From a virus: a DNA stretch of 21,750 bases. The translations under genes were made by a program, and so were the position numbers. This document shows, in pieces, positions 5,333 through 20,589 of the stretch. The notes below the pieces were generated by a model, which was not told the DNA's origin, ran no database searches, and was given only the letters and a program-made list of their open reading frames with translations. Location: IMG/VR virus record IMGVR_UViG_3300032523_000982, positions 1-21,750 of that record. One strand, 5' to 3'. Each line of letters begins with the position of its first letter. The stretch's first letter is position 1.

Positions 5333-6090
5333 AAAAAACCGGACTGGCCCAAGTCCAGTTCGCTCTTGTACTCGTGGCTGCAGACAGGACACTGCATGTC
5401 CATCTCCGTGTCCACGCCGCCGTCCTGCCCTTCCATCAGGGTCCGCAGGCCCTGACGATCTCGGAACGACAGCCCCTTGATGTCAGTCATCGTCGGTGCT
5501 TTTCCGTCGAGAAGATCGATGCGTGCGAGGAGCATGGCGGAGGGCTTCTCGTCGTCAGCGACCTTGCTGGCGCGCTCCTCGTCTGCGCCCGTCCCGAGCC
5601 GGTGCCGAACCGATCTACCCGAAGGGAGCACTCCGTCGAACACGCGAACCGTCGGGTTCGTCATCTTCTGGACGGTGAGTTCGCTGAGGTCGAGGACGTA
5701 GTTGCCCTTGCTTTTGCACTCCGGACAGAACTCCTCGACGGGAAACTCGTCTCCCAGAGACGTGCGACGAAGGGCCAGCAGCAGGAAAATGCGGTCGCCC
5801 GTCGGGAGGTGGGAGATGATGCTGGGGAACTGCCCTCGGTCCGTGATGGTGCCAATGCGCTCCAAACAGGCCGCCAGCAGCATCCCTAGCTTCTTCTGCA
5901 CCCCGAGCTTCGGCGTGGCGAGAAGGTCTTCTTCGCGCCCCGTCATTTCTCGCAGATGGACCTCTGTGTGGAGCACCCCGTGGTTGTCGAGGTAGCCGCA
6001 CGGCAAATCGAACACACCGTTCGACGCCTTCGGTGTCTCCAGCAGGTTTTGGTTGATGTTGTCCGAGAATGTGGGGGCTTTGTCGCTCAC
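5284..6090 (-). CDS. Tail assembly chaperone (G-like), T4 baseplate-family zinc protein
   Basis: 268 aa if no frameshift occurs. It should coat the tape-measure protein during tail assembly and be absent from the finished virion. The region from residue 47 (REMTGREEDLLATPK) through a DRIFLLLALRRTSLGDEF stretch (99-116) resembles the T4_baseplate/gp26-like family found in many large myophages. Two Cys pairs, CPEC at 122-125 and CPVC at 234-237, could form one zinc site. The slip site lies at residues 251-253, just after the second pair, so G and GT share both pairs and differ only in the tail. The ATG overlaps the stop of the preceding gene (ATGA). The G-like role rests on position before the tape measure and on the frameshift signal; the gp26-like label is from pattern memory only. 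Confidence 0.82.
   Translation of the reverse strand: MSDKAPTFSDNINQNLLETPKASNGVFDLPCGYLDNHGVLHTEVHLREMTGREEDLLATPKLGVQKKLGMLLAACLERIGTITDRGQFPSIISHLPTGDRIFLLLALRRTSLGDEFPVEEFCPECKSKGNYVLDLSELTVQKMTNPTVRVFDGVLPSGRSVRHRLGTGADEERASKVADDEKPSAMLLARIDLLDGKAPTMTDIKGLSFRDRQGLRTLMEGQDGGVDTEMDMQCPVCSHEYKSELDLGQSGFFFPGRVQKGSKTKSPS
5304..5338 (-). promoter_or_regulatory. Programmed -1 ribosomal frameshift signal
   Basis: On the minus strand the chaperone frame reads GGT TTT TTC, containing the canonical heptamer T TTT TTC (plus-strand 5332-5338). Eight bases later starts a stem of TCGAGTCC (5323-5316) with GGGCTCGA (5311-5304), one U-G wobble, closed by an AGAA loop. Slippery site, 7-9 nt spacer and stem are the three standard parts of a -1 signal. 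The slip joins the chaperone frame to the overlapping -1 frame, which continues to 5132. Confidence 0.9.
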
Positions 6091-6695
6091 GTCTTGTTCC
6101 TTCCAGCTGCGTCTACCAAAGGTGAGGCTTCCGCCTCGTACATACAGAAAAGAGCCTTGAGCGCCGACGTCACGGTCAGTCCTTGACCGTCAACGAGGGT
6201 CTTGAAGGTCGCGTATAGGTTGGACTCGACCCAGATGTTGAGGCGAACATCGGACCCCGCGTCCTGATAGGAGGCAAGGTCGTCGAAGCGACCTTGGTCG
6301 GCGACGTACCTGCCCATCATATAGCGGACCAGCGCGCCCATGCTTGACGTGTGTCCGACGTCGCGCCGTTCCTGCAACTTCTTATAGAGACGGTCCGAGA
6401 CCCAGATGTTGACCAGCCGTCTCTCCTGCTCTGCCAGCTTCCTCGGCGACACGCTGGATGCCAGCTCGCAAGCGCGACAGAGGAGGACTGAGTTCGCGAG
6501 CAGTAGTTTTCCACCAGCCTCCTCCGGCACGATGAGCCGAGGCTTCAGCTTGTGTTCGCCGCCGCAGTTCGCGCACCTACCATGGGCAGCGTCGAACACG
6601 GTCAGCGACCAGAGTCTGCGACTGATGGTGTCTTCGGGGGTCGTCGTCAAAAGGGCACCTGATGGGACCATATGGCCCGCGTCCATGTTGAGCAT
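6087..6695 (-). CDS. HNH-like zinc domain fused to two ribbon-helix-helix-like repeats
   Basis: 202 aa, unusual for a tail operon. Residues 41-76 hold CANC and CRAC pairs around LIVPEEAGG and LLLANSVLLC, the spacing and consensus of an HNH/McrA-type zinc finger, but the catalytic His pair expected before the I-x-P motif is replaced by Pro-Arg, so nuclease activity is doubtful. Residues 94-132 (start LVNIWVSDRLYKKL) and 151-188 (start RLNIWVESNLYATF) are two copies of a strand-helix-helix unit like Arc/MetJ/CopG DNA-binding domains; fused in one chain they could form a pseudo-dimer. A role as a DNA-binding regulator or DNA-associated virion protein is inference. The gene follows a hairpin gap, has GAGG nine bases before its ATG, and overlaps the chaperone start by ATGA, so it is co-translated with it. 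A homing endonuclease origin is possible but less likely. Confidence 0.6.
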   Translation of the reverse strand: MLNMDAGHMVPSGALLTTTPEDTISRRLWSLTVFDAAHGRCANCGGEHKLKPRLIVPEEAGGKLLLANSVLLCRACELASSVSPRKLAEQERRLVNIWVSDRLYKKLQERRDVGHTSSMGALVRYMMGRYVADQGRFDDLASYQDAGSDVRLNIWVESNLYATFKTLVDGQGLTVTSALKALFCMYEAEASPLVDAAGRNKT

Positions 6696-7051: not shown

Positions 7052-7846
7052 TTATGCTGCCAGCGAGATTTCCTCCACCGTTTCAGGTTGCACGTCCAGC
7101 TCCTGTATAGAGACTTGCCCAGAGCTGGCGTCGTAGTCCGTCCCTGTTTTGTAGCGAATAGGAATGCAGTTCTTGAGCAAGAACGCTCGCGCCGGTATTT
7201 TGATCCCCATCGAGTTAGAACCACTGGACGGCGGGGCGAAGCCCGCGTTGAACGTACCCGCAGCAGCATTCTGGGACCCTAGTTGAAGCCCTGACGCGAC
7301 ACCCGCCGCAAGACCAGTGGCTGCACCTGCTCCGGCTCCAACCGCAAAACCTGTCGTCAGTGATAGGGCGCTCGCCGACCCCAGCGCTAGTTTGATCTGA
7401 TCATCAACCGATGAGGCAGGTGTGTTGCGAAAGAAATGAACCAGCAGCAATGTCCGACGATAGGTGATGCCCCCTATCGGCAAAGCAGTACCGCCTGTGG
7501 AAAAAGTGCTGCCTATATTCAGACCAATCCCGCCTGTCGAAAAAGTGCTGCCTGTCGAACCCTCTACTGCGGACATGATCCAGCGCCAGAAGTCCGAATT
7601 AAACCAGCTCACTCCTCGGGAAAGAGTGATTGCACCGACGCTCGCACCCTTCACGGCAGTCTTGGTGAAGGCCCAGTTCCCCTCGTTGATCTGCTGAGTC
7701 TCAATAGTAATCTCAGGCGCAGTGATGCTCGAAAATCCAGATAGTGGCGTGAAAATCGGCAGTGCTGGAGCGAAGTCGATCGGAGCGACGTCGTAAAGCC
7801 AGAAGTTGCTGCCGCGCAGCGGATCGAGCAGTGGGTTGCGCGCCAT
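7052..7846 (-). CDS. Second tail-tube-like protein (gp19 family) with Gly/Ala-zipper insert
   Basis: 264 aa, a diverged relative of the adjacent tube protein. Shared pattern: a strand with TQQINEGNWAFTKTAV (about 50-65), GAITLSRGVSWFNSDFWRWI (71-90) matching the tube-family core, and a C-terminal QVSIQELDVQ strand. Between them lie two extras: a tandem 13-residue repeat STFSTGG-plus-six (100-125) and a long Gly/Ala/Leu stretch (about 153-194) that looks like a glycine-zipper helix pair or membrane-active hairpin. Likely roles are tube initiator at the baseplate end, a tail-tip ring or a terminal tube ring (inference); major tube subunits normally lack such an insert. The gene is separated from the tube gene by a strong hairpin. 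GAGGGGG precedes its ATG. Confidence 0.72.
   Translation of the reverse strand: MARNPLLDPLRGSNFWLYDVAPIDFAPALPIFTPLSGFSSITAPEITIETQQINEGNWAFTKTAVKGASVGAITLSRGVSWFNSDFWRWIMSAVEGSTGSTFSTGGIGLNIGSTFSTGGTALPIGGITYRRTLLLVHFFRNTPASSVDDQIKLALGSASALSLTTGFAVGAGAGAATGLAAGVASGLQLGSQNAAAGTFNAGFAPPSSGSNSMGIKIPARAFLLKNCIPIRYKTGTDYDASSGQVSIQELDVQPETVEEISLAA
7491..7553 (-). repeat. Direct 39-bp tandem duplication in the second tube-like gene
   Basis: A near-identical 24-base block occurs at 7491-7514 and 7530-7553 (one mismatch), with a third partial copy of about ten bases starting at 7550. The period is 39 bases (13 codons), so the frame is kept. Near identity at synonymous positions indicates a recent duplication. 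Confidence 0.85.
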
Positions 7847-7922: not shown

Positions 7923-8528
7923 TCAGGCTGAATTTCGGACGACTGCGACGTCAGCGTCTTCTACGCTGAAATACTCGAAAGCGATGTCGAGTTCCGTCAC
8001 AGAGATATCGCTGGACGTCGCATCGAGGTCTCCAGCGACCTTCACGCGGATCGGAAACGCCTCGTACAGTGTGTAGGTGCGCGAAGCAACAGCGTCGGTC
8101 TGGTTCGCCCTCGATCTCGGCGATCCATTCCCCCCTGTCGACTGACCAGTCAAAGGCGCTGATCCAGCCAACACAGATCGGTTGAAGTGCTTGATCGTGA
8201 CCTCAGTGCGGTAGTTGCCTGAACCCTCGATGACGACTTTGAGCCAGTTCCAGAAGTTCGAGTTCATCGGAGTGACACCCTTCTGCAAGGTGACTTCGTT
8301 GACAGTCGTATTGCCGGGATACTTCTGGGAGTAGTTAAAGTGTCCTTCACGGTATTCGACAGACTCAGTCGTTGCCTCTGGCGTCGTGCAGGACATGAAT
8401 CCTGCAGGAGTATTCGCCGCGCTCATCTCAGGACGGAGTGCGTCAGGAATACCTGTTAAAGGCGATCCGTCCGTGGTCACATGGAACCGCATTGAGTGCA
8501 GGAAGTCGGTACTCGCAGGTCTCGCCAT
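7923..8528 (-). CDS. Tail tube protein, T4 gp19 family
   Basis: 201 aa, close to the usual length. It polymerises into the inner tube around the tape-measure protein, inside the sheath. The core pattern is clear: strand FHVTTDG at 15-21, then SVEYREGHFNYSQKYPGNTT (56-75), EVTLQKGV (78-85) and NSNFWNWLKVVIEG (89-102), followed by a flexible Ser/Gly-rich loop (about 122-145) and C-terminal strands FPIRVKVAGDLD and ISVTELDIAFEYFS. This is the classic layout of the gp19/tube family. AAGGAG lies seven bases before the ATG. Its position downstream of the sheath, with one gene between, is normal for contractile tails. The hairpin after it may raise its expression relative to later genes. Confidence 0.88.
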   Translation of the reverse strand: MARPASTDFLHSMRFHVTTDGSPLTGIPDALRPEMSAANTPAGFMSCTTPEATTESVEYREGHFNYSQKYPGNTTVNEVTLQKGVTPMNSNFWNWLKVVIEGSGNYRTEVTIKHFNRSVLAGSAPLTGQSTGGNGSPRSRANQTDAVASRTYTLYEAFPIRVKVAGDLDATSSDISVTELDIAFEYFSVEDADVAVVRNSA

Positions 8529-9277: not shown

Positions 9278-12130
9278 TCAGCTATTCAAGCTCTTGCTTT
9301 GAAAGCGCATTCGGACAAATTCAGCAGGTCTGTTCACCGCAGCGCCGACGTCGATGATGACCTGACCTGATTCGATGGCTGCTGGCGTGTTGTTCGAGGC
9401 GTCACAGACCACAAAGTACGCCTGCGCCGGATTCACACCCGCGAAATAGCCCTGCGCGAACAGATTTCCCAAGTAGGAGTCCAGCTGCGTCTTGATACGC
9501 GTCCACAGACCGGGACCGTTGTTCTCGAAGACGATCCACCAAGTTGCGTTGAAGATCGACTTCTCCATGAACATGAACAAGCGTCTTGCGTTGATGTAGC
9601 GCCAGTCGGGGACTTGCGAGATGGTGCGAACACCCCACACCGCAATCCCTGTTTGCTGGGTCGAGATGAGCGCGTTGATCTTGTTCGGGTAGACAATATC
9701 ACGGTCGGACTGCGTCGGGGCTGTCTCCAGTTCCACGAGGTAAGTCAGAGCGCCATCTACTGTGCCGCCGGGACTTTTTCCGACGTTCTTGTTGTTGTCG
9801 GTGCGCGCATAGACACCTGCGATGTGTCCCAAGGCGGGCATCAGCAAAGGCCGGTTGTTCATCAGTGGGTTGGTGACACGGACCCAAGGCCAATAGACCG
9901 CCGCGTAATCCGAGGACCGCGCAAGACTGAACCGGAACCAATCCGCAGCCCTCTGCGCCGTCAGGCCCGATGGCGTGGTGAGGATGATAAAGCGGTCGCC
10001 ACCCGAAGGAAGGATCGCTCGGCCCGCAGCATAGTCGAGCTGGTCTGCGGTCGTGATCGTATTCCCAGCAAAGTCAGGAATGGCGACCTGCAGAATTTCT
10101 TCGACCTTGTTGAAGGCGAACATGCCCTTGTCGGTCGCACCGAGCGTCGTGACGTCGGTAAACTGTGCGCGACCCCAGTTCGCTGAGTCGAAAGTCCCCT
10201 CGGCTCCCAGAAGGTAGTTCTTGGAGACGTCCCCAAGGGTATCAGAGTGGACCGTCTCGTCGGCTTGGGAGGCGAACGTCGCTACCACCAGCGAAGAACC
10301 CTTGATGTTGTTCAGGGTGGTGAACTCAACTGCACCAGTTTCGTAGTCGATGGTGTTGACTGCCGAAGACAGTACAGACCCCACCAGATTGCCGTCACCG
10401 TCGTCCGTGATGACGCGAGCAGCGCCGCCAGTGTCGGTGTAGCTGATGGACACTGTGCGAAGTGCAGCAGGGCCACCAAGGGTTGTCGAAAACACTCGGT
10501 TGGGGGCCAATCCATTACCACCGCCGAGCACCAGCGAGTGCGGGACCGCGTTCAACTGATACGGAGGGATGTCTCCGGCGGGTTCCGTGACGCGGAGGTA
10601 GTCGGATAGTTCGTTCACGACGTCCGCAAAGTAGACTGGCGACGAGGAGTCGTCGAAGACCACTTCCTCGTACTGCTCCACGACGTTGAAGGCGGAAGTC
10701 GATGTCTCTCGCAAAAGCACAAGCACGTCAAAGCGAGTGTATGAGCCGGTCGCCGCCTTGAAGAAGTTGGGCGATCCTGCGATCTGGACTTGGACGTTGT
10801 TGCCCCACGCGCCAACCGAGATCGGGTTCACCGACCAAGCGTTGAGCATGTAGTCCGCGAGGAGCGGGCTCTTGTTGCATGGCACGAAGCCGGTCAGGTC
10901 GAGAGCGAACGCACCCGATGAGTAGTCCACGGACCCTGGGGTCGCGACATCCCCAAGCCACAGACCTGCTGCCGAAGCGACCGTGGGAGCCACGGAGAAA
11001 CCCGCTGCTGCGACCGTCTCCGATAAGACAGGCGTTGGTGCAACCGATGAATTCGGCACTAGTTTGATTTGGGTCGAAGACCCCGCCACGGCTTCCGCTT
11101 TAAGCAGAAGCAGGGGGGCGTTGTTGATGGCGGCAATCGTGGCGGCTTGGACGACCGAGGTGGCATCCGCGAGCGTGAACGGGATGGGCAGGCCGGTCGA
11201 CGCACCGTTCGAGTCGTACTCGAAGGTGACGGGAGGGTTGACGCCGTCGTCGATGATGAAGGCGTTGGTGTCCACGAGCGACGCGCCTGCAACGATAGTG
11301 ATCGCCGCGAAACCGTCCACAGCCGTGTGCGTAGCCGAGGTCGGAGTGAAGTCTGCAGTGACGAGGACTCCGTTGTCGCCGAGAACCGGCACAAACGTCC
11401 CGAAAGTGCGGAGCGAGAAGCGACCCGAGCGCGAGTCAAGAGTCACGAGCGCGCCGTCGATGCCGTTGCCGACCGATGCTTGGACGACCGATCCCGTCCC
11501 TGTCGGGATCAGGATCGCCTGAGCGCCAGGGCCGGTGAGCGTGAAATTGATCGTGACCGTTCCTCGAACGACCGCGTCGAGGTTGTTCACCAGCGTTGGG
11601 AGGCTGGTGGGGTTGATGCGACCCTCGTAGCTTGCCTGAGCCGTCACCAATGTGAGGTTGGCCACGCTGTCGCGGTCACGAGTGTTCTGGGCGACCACGG
11701 GGGCACCCGCAGAACGCCAGTTGACGTTGATCGAGCCGGGTACGAGCGGGCTGGCTCCTGCCACAGTCGGAAACGAGCCGGAGAACTCTGTGAGTACGCC
11801 GTCACCTGTGCCGATGCTGTCATCGGTGAGGACTGACTGAATCTTCGCGTTGGCAGCCACTGCGTCAGCCGGAGGGACACGGACAACGAACGCGCGACGC
11901 CCGCTGTTAGCGAAGAACGCCGCCAACGACAAAGGCATGAAACTTTGCGCGACGAGTCCACCGAACGCCCGAGTGTACTGCTCGAAGCTCTGCACAAGGA
12001 CGGCCTCGTTGGCAGGACCACGAGCAGCGTAGCCCACGATGCCGAGGTTCGACGTTGTCACACCGGGGACGATCTGCGCCGCAGTGGGGACTTCCTCGAC
12101 GAAGACACCGGGTGAAAGGAATTCGGTCAT
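9278..12130 (-). CDS. Tail sheath protein (gp18-like), enlarged by inserted domains
   Basis: 950 aa against 659 in T4. It forms the contractile outer tail. The N-terminus, MTEFLSPGVFVEEVPTAAQI, then GIVGYAARGP and RRAFVVRV (residues 1-85), is the sheath family signature. The conserved C-terminal part (about 640-950) has AADWFRFSLARSSDYAAVYW and a closing FENNGPGLWTRIKTQLDSYL, with an INARRLFMFMEKSI helix. The middle is expanded: a segment at 105-265 with strand-rich blocks, one at 270-385 of the type IIDDGVNPPVTFEYDSNG followed by an Ala-rich TIAAINNAP turn (seen in repeat-containing surface proteins), and one at 535-622 nearly identical in pattern to an insert in the capsid protein. These should project from the tail surface. 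TAGGAG lies six bases before the ATG. Confidence 0.93.
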   Translation of the reverse strand: MTEFLSPGVFVEEVPTAAQIVPGVTTSNLGIVGYAARGPANEAVLVQSFEQYTRAFGGLVAQSFMPLSLAAFFANSGRRAFVVRVPPADAVAANAKIQSVLTDDSIGTGDGVLTEFSGSFPTVAGASPLVPGSINVNWRSAGAPVVAQNTRDRDSVANLTLVTAQASYEGRINPTSLPTLVNNLDAVVRGTVTINFTLTGPGAQAILIPTGTGSVVQASVGNGIDGALVTLDSRSGRFSLRTFGTFVPVLGDNGVLVTADFTPTSATHTAVDGFAAITIVAGASLVDTNAFIIDDGVNPPVTFEYDSNGASTGLPIPFTLADATSVVQAATIAAINNAPLLLLKAEAVAGSSTQIKLVPNSSVAPTPVLSETVAAAGFSVAPTVASAAGLWLGDVATPGSVDYSSGAFALDLTGFVPCNKSPLLADYMLNAWSVNPISVGAWGNNVQVQIAGSPNFFKAATGSYTRFDVLVLLRETSTSAFNVVEQYEEVVFDDSSSPVYFADVVNELSDYLRVTEPAGDIPPYQLNAVPHSLVLGGGNGLAPNRVFSTTLGGPAALRTVSISYTDTGGAARVITDDGDGNLVGSVLSSAVNTIDYETGAVEFTTLNNIKGSSLVVATFASQADETVHSDTLGDVSKNYLLGAEGTFDSANWGRAQFTDVTTLGATDKGMFAFNKVEEILQVAIPDFAGNTITTADQLDYAAGRAILPSGGDRFIILTTPSGLTAQRAADWFRFSLARSSDYAAVYWPWVRVTNPLMNNRPLLMPALGHIAGVYARTDNNKNVGKSPGGTVDGALTYLVELETAPTQSDRDIVYPNKINALISTQQTGIAVWGVRTISQVPDWRYINARRLFMFMEKSIFNATWWIVFENNGPGLWTRIKTQLDSYLGNLFAQGYFAGVNPAQAYFVVCDASNNTPAAIESGQVIIDVGAAVNRPAEFVRMRFQSKSLNS

Positions 12131-17933: not shown

Positions 17934-19010
17934 TCAATCCTCGAACAGCGGATACACCGCGTCAGCGAGGTACACCCCAGCGTGGTGATCCGAAGGGAAG
18001 TGCAAGCCCGCACGGATGCGGTTCTGCCCAACATCTTCAGCCAGCGCCTCCAAGCGCGGGCGAATGGTCGGGTAGCGGTCTCCGTAGAGACGCGCGAGGA
18101 ACCTTGAAGCAAAGCTGTGCCCAGATGGGTAGGCCGGGGTCTGCGCGACCTCGGACTCCACCACGACGAGAGGCAGGTTGTAGTAGTCAGCGATCTGCTC
18201 GGGGCGAGGTCGATTGAACTTCAGCTTGTAGAACTGGCTGATCGTAGCCAGCTCGCTCGTGATGGCGTCTAGGTCAGAGCGGTCCTTGTCAGAGAACCTT
18301 AGCCCCTCGCGCGCACACGCATCCGCGAGGAAGTCCGAGAAGAATTCCTCTAAATGCTCGTCTTGCTGGAGGAAGCGTTGCTCCAGTTCTGGAGTGAGCG
18401 TGTCCTCGGCTTGCTGCACCAGAACAAGCTCCATCCGAGTTTCGAGGCTGCTGTTGCTCGGCGGAGGCTTCAGGTCGAGGAGCTTCCAGTCCGAACGGAA
18501 GCGGCGCACAGGCCGATCCGTGTAAGCCCTCTCGGAGCCTTGTATGGGTCCATAGCGGAGGTCGTCGAGCGAAGGCGCCTCGGAGAGCAGGTTTATCATG
18601 CGTTGCTCTATTGACTCTCGACGCACAGACGCTCCAGCAGCAGCTGCCTTCTTGGTGTTCGGGACGAACTGCGCTGAAGACCCACGCTTCTTGCGACGGG
18701 TGGCAGCCTTCTGCGCCTTGGTGAGCTTGTTCCACGCCTTGCGGGGGAGGTAGCGGTCGCAGACGGTCTTGCCGTCCACGGTCTTGCAGGCTTTGTCGCC
18801 TGAAGCGGTCGTCCAGTCCTCGTCAGACCACTTCCCCATCGAAGTCTGGGCCTTCGTGCGCGCGCCGCAGTAACCTCCGCCAGCATCCCGGTAAAGTTTT
18901 CCTGCAAGCTGCATCGCACGCGCAGAGAAGCGCCCGCCCATCTGGGCGATGGCATTCTTCTTTGACTTCTCCCAGAGGTCGGGATCGGTGCGGCCTTTGA
19001 TGCAGGACAT
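17934..19010 (-). CDS. PAP2-family phosphatase fused to a small basic Cys-containing domain
   Basis: 358 aa. Residues 1-125 form a separate domain: GGRFSARAMQLAGKLYRDAG (25-44), four Cys (48, 75, 84 and near the start C3), KWSDEDWTT, RYLPRKAWNKLTKAQKAATR (86-105) and QFVPNT. I associate this with DUF5872-type domains of phages and large DNA viruses. A linker (130-205) leads to a PAP2/class A acid phosphatase domain with all three catalytic motifs: K262-x6-R269-P270, PSGH at 295-298, and R331-x5-H337-x3-D341. There is no membrane helix and no signal peptide, so it should be soluble, unlike typical lipid phosphatases. It removes phosphate from an ester substrate that cannot be named from sequence. 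It lies between the capsid gene and neck genes with a terminator on each side. Start: AAGG four bases before the ATG. Confidence 0.85.
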   Translation of the reverse strand: MSCIKGRTDPDLWEKSKKNAIAQMGGRFSARAMQLAGKLYRDAGGGYCGARTKAQTSMGKWSDEDWTTASGDKACKTVDGKTVCDRYLPRKAWNKLTKAQKAATRRKKRGSSAQFVPNTKKAAAAGASVRRESIEQRMINLLSEAPSLDDLRYGPIQGSERAYTDRPVRRFRSDWKLLDLKPPPSNSSLETRMELVLVQQAEDTLTPELEQRFLQQDEHLEEFFSDFLADACAREGLRFSDKDRSDLDAITSELATISQFYKLKFNRPRPEQIADYYNLPLVVVESEVAQTPAYPSGHSFASRFLARLYGDRYPTIRPRLEALAEDVGQNRIRAGLHFPSDHHAGVYLADAVYPLFED

Positions 19011-19090: not shown

Positions 19091-20584
19091 CTACAAATTC
19101 GTCACACGCATTTGACCATAATATTCCGGGCGCAAGAGCTTCTTCGCGTAGCGGGTACGCATCGCCTTGCGGAGCGAGAAGTCGTTCGGATCCAGGAACG
19201 TCTGGGTGACCTGCAGGGGGATGTACGGGGCCCAGACGTAGCCGGCGTCGAGGAAGCTGCCGCCCTTGAGGCCGATCAGCATCTGGTCGCGCTGGAAGAA
19301 GGGGTCTTCGTAGACCATCCACTTGTTCTGCAAGGTGCCGACCTTGTAGATGCCGAACTGACCCTGTGATGACAGGGGGCGGGGCATGTCAGCGGGGCCG
19401 TAGGGCGATTCAGCGCCCGAGACGTACGCTGCGCGGAAGTCACCATGCGTGGTGAGCTGAGCGAGCAGGGCGCTCACTTCGGGGCTCGTCACGATGAAGT
19501 TCGCGGGCGCACGCAGGGTCTTCTTGTGGATCTGGTTCGAGACGGTCGAGATGACCGTGAGCATCGAGCGCAGGTGGTCGAGTTCCGAGATGCCAGCCGG
19601 GGGCACGCGGTCGAACGAGCCGGTGGTCGAAGTCGAGTTCTGGAAGAGGTCGTCGATGATCTCACGATCAATTTCGAGTGCCATTTCCTGAGCGACTGCG
19701 CTGACGATCTCAGTCTCGGCGTCGATGCCGTGGAAGGCGCGGAGGTCTTCAGCGGCTTCGCTGGACCACAGAGCCTTGAGGCGGCGAGGCTGAGCTTCGA
19801 CTGCGGCCTTTTTGACGTCGAGCTTCATCGACGGGATCTTGGTGTTCAGTTCGCCGTCGTAGACGTAGAACGCCTTGATCTGGTTGCCCAGACCGCACGC
19901 GAGGGTGAACCGGAAGCCGGAGATGGCACCGTTCGCGTAGTTGAGGGCACCCGAGAGCACGTTGCCGGTGAAGCCACCAGCACCGTCATCGGTCGCCTGC
20001 TGGACAACGGCACCCGTGATGACGTTGAACTCGCGGACGATGGTGGCGAAGCCGTTCGAGGCGTTCAGCGGACGAACCGGGTTGAACGACAGGGTGGACG
20101 AGAGCGGAGCGCCAGCGCCGCCGAAGTCAGCGCCGTTGCCGGTGCCGAGGATCTCGCCGTCGATCTTCTCCGACGTGTAGTTGCGGTCGAAGTCACGAGG
20201 GAAGACCTGACCGCGCTGGGTCGGAGCCTTGTTCGTGTCGTAGACGTAGTCGAGGAAGAACACGGCGCCGACCGAGGCCGTCATCGGCTGCACGGACACG
20301 ATGTCGTGGGCGATGAGGTTCGGGAACACACGACGGAGGACGGGGAAGATGAACTTCGTGAACGAGCCGACGTTCACGAGGCGAGTCTCTTCTTCGAGGC
20401 TCTGGAGATGCTGCGACTCGTTCTCCATCAGCACGGCAGTGACGCCAAGAACGTAACGGTCACGTTCACTTCGGTCAGGCATACCTTCCAGCAAGTCCTT
20501 CCACTTGCGAACAAGGGCACCGACGTAGGTCTTGTCGGCAATCGTGCGGGTCGAACCTTCGAGAATCATATTACGCGCTTCCAT
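19091..20584 (-). CDS. Major capsid protein, gp23-like, with inserted domain
   Basis: 497 aa from the ATG at 20584 (T4 gp23 has 521). AAGGAG lies eight bases before this ATG; a GTG just upstream (20587) is too close to the ribosome site to be preferred. The family pattern is clear: VFPNLIAHDIVSVQPMTASV (about 87-106) matching gp23's QPM-x-x-P/S region, FLDYVYDTNKAPTQRG, a helix EMALEIDREIIDDLF (300-314), ITSPEV-like strand (IVTSPEVSALL) and the C-terminal LRKAMRTRYAKKLLRPEYYG (471-490). Residues 147-246 carry a beta-rich insert (IDGEILGTGNG to AFYVYDGELN) that has a counterpart in the sheath. The N-terminal region (1-65) would include the propeptide removed by prohead protease in T4; no exact cut site is claimed. 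Confidence 0.93.
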   Translation of the reverse strand: MEARNMILEGSTRTIADKTYVGALVRKWKDLLEGMPDRSERDRYVLGVTAVLMENESQHLQSLEEETRLVNVGSFTKFIFPVLRRVFPNLIAHDIVSVQPMTASVGAVFFLDYVYDTNKAPTQRGQVFPRDFDRNYTSEKIDGEILGTGNGADFGGAGAPLSSTLSFNPVRPLNASNGFATIVREFNVITGAVVQQATDDGAGGFTGNVLSGALNYANGAISGFRFTLACGLGNQIKAFYVYDGELNTKIPSMKLDVKKAAVEAQPRRLKALWSSEAAEDLRAFHGIDAETEIVSAVAQEMALEIDREIIDDLFQNSTSTTGSFDRVPPAGISELDHLRSMLTVISTVSNQIHKKTLRAPANFIVTSPEVSALLAQLTTHGDFRAAYVSGAESPYGPADMPRPLSSQGQFGIYKVGTLQNKWMVYEDPFFQRDQMLIGLKGGSFLDAGYVWAPYIPLQVTQTFLDPNDFSLRKAMRTRYAKKLLRPEYYGQMRVTNL

Positions 20585-20589
20585 CACAC

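Follow-up and report, generated by a model that had tools for sequence, protein, structure and literature searches.

The I-domain of the phage P1 capsid protein is beta-sheet-rich, projects outward from the shell and touches the adjacent capsomer, so that it bridges capsomers (PMC12810830), and insertion domains stabilize the capsids of T4 and phi29 (PMC3185693). In contractile sheaths, known and modelled, additional domains generally point away from the tube, and both stabilization and adhesion have been proposed for them (PMC9230969). Promiscuous Ig-like domains of phages, namely Big2, I-set and FN3, have been described (Fraser 2006, cited in PMC10276861). Capsid I-domains, extra sheath domains and the sharing of beta-domains among virion proteins are already known themes. 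As judged from the open-access papers searched, the new elements reported here are the nesting of module copies and the sequence-level homology of the capsid I-domain family, including that of P1, with the repeated domains of a sheath and with PHROG_6128 proteins. Searches of open-access papers turned up no account of sharing between capsid and sheath; subscription papers fall outside this scope, which makes the absence a weak one. The reading considered probable is that one beta-module of ~85-105 residues forms both the outward I-domain of the capsid and a repeated outer unit of the sheath, that it belongs to a widespread domain, and that its role is a stabilizing one.

Capsid and sheath genes of the window

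The window is the whole stretch of viral DNA that was analyzed, 21,750 nucleotides in length. The major capsid protein, of the gp23 type, is encoded on the minus strand at 19094..20587 and comprises 498 amino acids when translated from the GTG at 20587; an alternative ATG one codon further in, at 20584, yields a protein of 497 amino acids. The assignment was made by Pfam Gp23 (E=2.4e-72), by PHROG_138 (major head protein) and by structural comparison with Foldseek and VIA. The tail sheath protein (9281..12130, minus strand, 950 amino acids) matches Pfam Phage_sheath_1 and 1C as well as PHROG_23 (tail sheath, E=2.5e-56), and was also assigned from its AlphaFold (AF2) model and by VIA. Both identities, a gp23-type capsid and a tail sheath, are those assumed in the original prediction, and the two segments compared there fall at the proper nucleotides: capsid residues 147-246, with the ATG at 20584 taken as residue 1, correspond exactly to 19847-20146, and sheath residues 535-622 correspond to 10265-10528.

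Several other genes on the minus strand of the window were also annotated. The product of 17937-19010 is a phage protein in which a weakly DUF5872-like N-terminus is joined to a domain of the PAP2 superfamily. Two gp19-like tail tube proteins are encoded in succession at 7926-8528 and 7055-7846, the match of the second being restricted to its N-terminal part. At 6090-6695, between the genes for the tail tube and for the tape measure, there is a weak match to an HNH endonuclease (PHROG_2214, E=2.2e-4).

Homology of the capsid I-domain and a sheath segment

The beta-module of the capsid is the I-domain and spans residues 145-247 in the numbering from the GTG (19847..20155, minus strand), as supported by HHalign to the sheath segment, by a match to PDB entry 9UKM and by the AF2 model. 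It sits between an RRxxPNLIAxxIxxVQPM...Y block and an IEA/VEAxxRxLKA block, and in the HMM alignment to T4 gp23 conserved blocks flank capsid residues ~130-250. T4 gp23 and the P1 capsid occupied the first two Foldseek ranks for the capsid model and were likewise returned by VIA, which aligned 371 residues with 9UKM (Z 15.2, rmsd 7.3). A profile of the module alone, searched against PDB sequences, produced one clear match, to residues 226-294 of 9UKM 'Gp23' (E=4.7e-5), and this entry was identified by tblastn as the phage P1 capsid. The segment in the window capsid is the I-domain normally found in gp23-type capsids, and it is homologous to that of P1. The same module is present in the capsids of Xanthomonas phage phiXF1, Thermus phage phiLo, Listeria phage LIS04, Bacillus phage SP-15, Escherichia phage IME392 and Pseudomonas phage QdP_Psa3. 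The insert had been regarded as a novelty of this capsid that might be absent from the gp23 and gp18 of close relatives; instead, its place is the usual one of a gp23 I-domain, and it is found in 53 of 53 distinct capsids and in all 56 distinct sheaths that were aligned.

Homology extends over the full length of capsid residues ~145-247 and sheath residues ~530-624. At the level of single sequences, most of the BLASTP similarity falls within a 35-residue block with 46% identity (E=5e-6 for that pair alone), and the local alignment score of 72 for the window pair was equalled by 1 of 5,000 shuffles (shuffle mean 32.7, sd 6.2). That one shuffle attained the score, together with the low pairwise identity apart from the DDG-x-G and N/D-Y-x-x-G turns, is what would be seen if two unrelated beta-domains had converged on these two turns and shared nothing else, an origin that is nevertheless highly improbable in view of the profile and structural results. 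HHalign returned a probability of 95% for the capsid and sheath modules with the first relatives and 97.2% (E=3.6e-11) for 53 capsids against 56 sheaths, the alignment running the length of the module (89 of 103 columns). An HMM of the module from either protein recovered the other: 21 sheaths were matched by the capsid-module HMM, in 44 stretches altogether, and 75 capsids were found with the HMM of the sheath module. Intermediates also exist, in that the sheath consensus finds the phiLo capsid. The possibility had been raised that the capsid segment was simply the ordinary gp23 I-domain with no likeness to the sheath outside the TDDG block; the first half of this holds, but the similarity reaches far past that block, and the same ~95-residue beta-module is present in both proteins as was proposed.

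The two proteins were modelled with AF2, each from a separate alignment. The capsid model is of middling overall confidence (pLDDT 71, pTM 0.49), with the I-domain at a pLDDT of about 84-91 over most of its length, and the sheath model has a pLDDT of 88. The strands predicted in the two modules match one another in order: the strand or non-strand state is the same at 82% of 90 aligned residues, a level attained by 0 of 89 circular shifts, the best of which gave 73%. Homology, rather than convergence, is concluded because the HHalign result, the reciprocal HMM matches and this strand-for-strand agreement of the models all point to it.

Module copies in the sheath and in other phage proteins

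Profile alignment indicates that the sheath carries about three copies of the module, termed A, B and C, all encoded on the minus strand. Copy C (residues 530-624, 10259..10543) contains the segment described above, with an HHalign probability of 97% to the I-domain and the 82% agreement in secondary structure. The other two lie in the sheath beyond the segment first reported. Copy A is split into an N-terminal half (residues 95-150, 11681..11848) and a C-terminal half (residues 376-436, 10823..11005); HHalign of the joined halves gave 96% against the capsid and 97% against copy C, and the C-terminal half on its own gave 93% against copy C. A probable copy B (residues ~180-266, 11333..11593) is nested within copy A and was aligned at 94% to copy A and 90% to copy C. 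Against the capsid alone, copy B showed no significant HHalign match (4%), its support coming solely through copies A and C.

A second, different module of ~105 residues (268-375, 11006..11329, minus strand), recognized by its phmmer homologues, occupies the DDG loop of copy A in the window and in close relatives. Homologues of this second module lie within copy C instead in four other stretches (L149, L063, L049 and L158; phmmer E 6.7e-18 to 8.4e-6), and it therefore appears to have been inserted at different places more than once.

The conserved core of the sheath consists of an N-terminal part (residues 5-94, 11849..12118, minus strand), aligned with contractile sheath cores and with a mean column identity of 0.70, and a C-terminal part (residues 640-945, 9296..10213, minus strand), supported by Pfam, by an HMM match to 8bky (E=3.2e-108) and by VIA, in which the sheath model matched solved sheath cores with Z up to 39. 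Since the core comprises residues ~5-94 and ~640-945 and the modules are found at 95-436 and 530-624, all module copies belong to the extra, non-core part of the protein.

The wider occurrence of the module was surveyed by a DNA scan for the exact motif DDGxGNLTGD, which recovers just those copies that preserve the motif exactly; tblastn using consensus modules was insensitive. Viral contigs yielded 86 stretches, and genomes of bacteria and archaea a further 15; nearly all of them encode the module by HMM, two being clearly spurious (L289 and L292). Among the carriers are gp23-type capsids, sheaths, a baseplate wedge protein (PHROG_219), uncharacterized proteins and PHROG_6128 proteins, in which up to six module copies occur. 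A free-standing protein of 157 amino acids, encoded on two metagenome contigs (L031:15280-15750 and L144:2-454, the latter missing its start), consists of little beyond a capsid I-domain, with about 42% identity to capsid I-domains; in L031 its gene, which has a plausible ribosome-binding site, lies downstream of the capsid gene at a distance of ~4 kb. In 14 large records of relatives, profile matches were restricted to open frames of capsid or sheath size, and in the cultured phages phiXF1, phiLo, LIS04, SP-15, P1, IME392 and QdP_Psa3 a single profile match each was obtained, in the capsid. The module is accordingly portable among phage proteins, as the original prediction held, although its occurrence in these further classes of virion protein means that it is not a unit peculiar to the capsid and sheath of this phage. 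Judged by its sequence relatives, it is one instance of a widespread phage structural domain that has no name. No Pfam family named the module in a scan of 18 module sequences; the Big2, I-set and FN3 models were not matched, and the best Ig-type rows were Big_8 (E=0.044) and Big_3 (E=0.35), with one member each.

In an Aquificaceae MAG (L287:5253-6749), the I-domain of a gp23-type capsid weakly matches DUF2460 (E=2.1e-4, below the Pfam cut-off), which may be a distant connection to a further family of phage-associated proteins.

Recent exchange or duplication of the segments between the two genes in this lineage, with which the 46% identity block in the window pair would be in keeping, was rejected as very unlikely. 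Capsid-sheath module pairs are no closer within one contig (mean score 62.0) than across contigs (mean score 60.7; p=0.22), and both inserts are present in every relative aligned. In a tree of 79 modules, which has poor resolution (stars on 8 of its 76 branches, most deep forks without resolution) and lends such an exchange no support, the window capsid copy is one of 12 in a strongly supported set made up of capsid copies only, and the window sheath copies group with sheath copies. Because same-phage copies are no closer than cross-phage copies and the tree groups them by protein, the sharing looks old and not a recent transfer in this lineage.

Module regions are more variable than the cores. 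The median identity of the I-domain is 56% vs 74% for the capsid core, with the I-domain lower in 52 of 52 comparisons, and faster variation of this kind is expected of exposed parts. The conserved module positions are mostly turn Gly and Asp/Asn, plus a few core aromatics, a composition that suggests the signature of a fold and not any evident site of binding.

Exposure, function and relation to known systems

An outside position on both structures, as was originally proposed, is very probable, given that the P1 I-domain protrudes (PMC12810830) and that the sheath copies lie wholly outside the core. By analogy, outward exposure and a stabilizing function are also the most likely properties of the module in this phage. 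The capsid copy would project from the shell, contact neighboring capsomers and stabilize the head in the manner of the P1 and T4 I-domains; it is because of its homology with these that the capsid copy is proposed to brace the shell from outside. The sheath copies would form outer protrusions directed away from the tube, which may stabilize the sheath or contact the surroundings, and for these copies outer-layer stabilization and weak adhesion are both possible.

The module had further been suggested to be a surface-display unit that coats head and tail for weak binding to host or mucus polysaccharide. Its likely outward position (PMC12810830; PMC9230969), the presence of several copies on both shells and the weak carbohydrate binding proposed for phage Ig-like domains (PMC9230969) are in keeping with such a role. 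It is nonetheless rather unlikely, as no carbohydrate-binding family was matched in Pfam by the full proteins or by the 18 module sequences, nor was any other family by the modules; the conserved turn residues and few aromatics are what a fold alone would give, and the module is further present in structural proteins of other kinds, among them a baseplate wedge protein. A broader reading, also unlikely, would make the module a general clip-on surface domain that enters loops of capsid, sheath and baseplate proteins, nests within itself, accepts a second mobile domain into its own loops, occurs free-standing and, in this lineage, covers head and tail with many copies that confer a common weak adhesion on the virion.

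The sequence-level link joins capsid insertion domains, including the solved one of P1, with the extra domains of large sheaths, two groups usually treated apart, and extends to a baseplate wedge protein and the PHROG_6128 proteins. Such a link would justify naming a domain family, would help to annotate many phage proteins whose function is unknown, and would make domain insertion between virion proteins testable.

Among known systems, the promiscuous phage Ig-like domains (Fraser 2006, cited in PMC10276861) resemble the module in being a beta-domain common to unrelated virion proteins, but the module has no significant Pfam match to Big2, I-set or FN3. The extra beta-sandwich domains of contractile sheaths, as presented in the available text of PMC9230969, are similarly located outside the conserved core and away from the tube and are sometimes made of two chain segments; there they are described as Ig-like in general, without a sequence link to capsid I-domains. 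The PHROG_6128 profile matches both window segments and 14 of the 18 module sequences, whereas the architecture of these 1200-aa phage proteins, with several module copies, is unlike that of a capsid or sheath. The I-domains of T4 gp23 and gp24 (5VF3, 6UZC, 1YUE) hold the equal position in the same capsid family and stabilize the capsid (PMC3185693), although neither is found at the sequence level by the module profile. The P1 gp23 I-domain (9UKM, 9VL4) has low sequence identity to the window module, and across the whole P1 record the profile has a single match, which lies in the capsid, with none in the sheath; yet the P1 I-domain is likewise a beta-rich insertion in an HK97-fold capsid protein, is recovered by the module profile (E=4.7e-5) and carries the common DxGxGxL...NYxxG signature.
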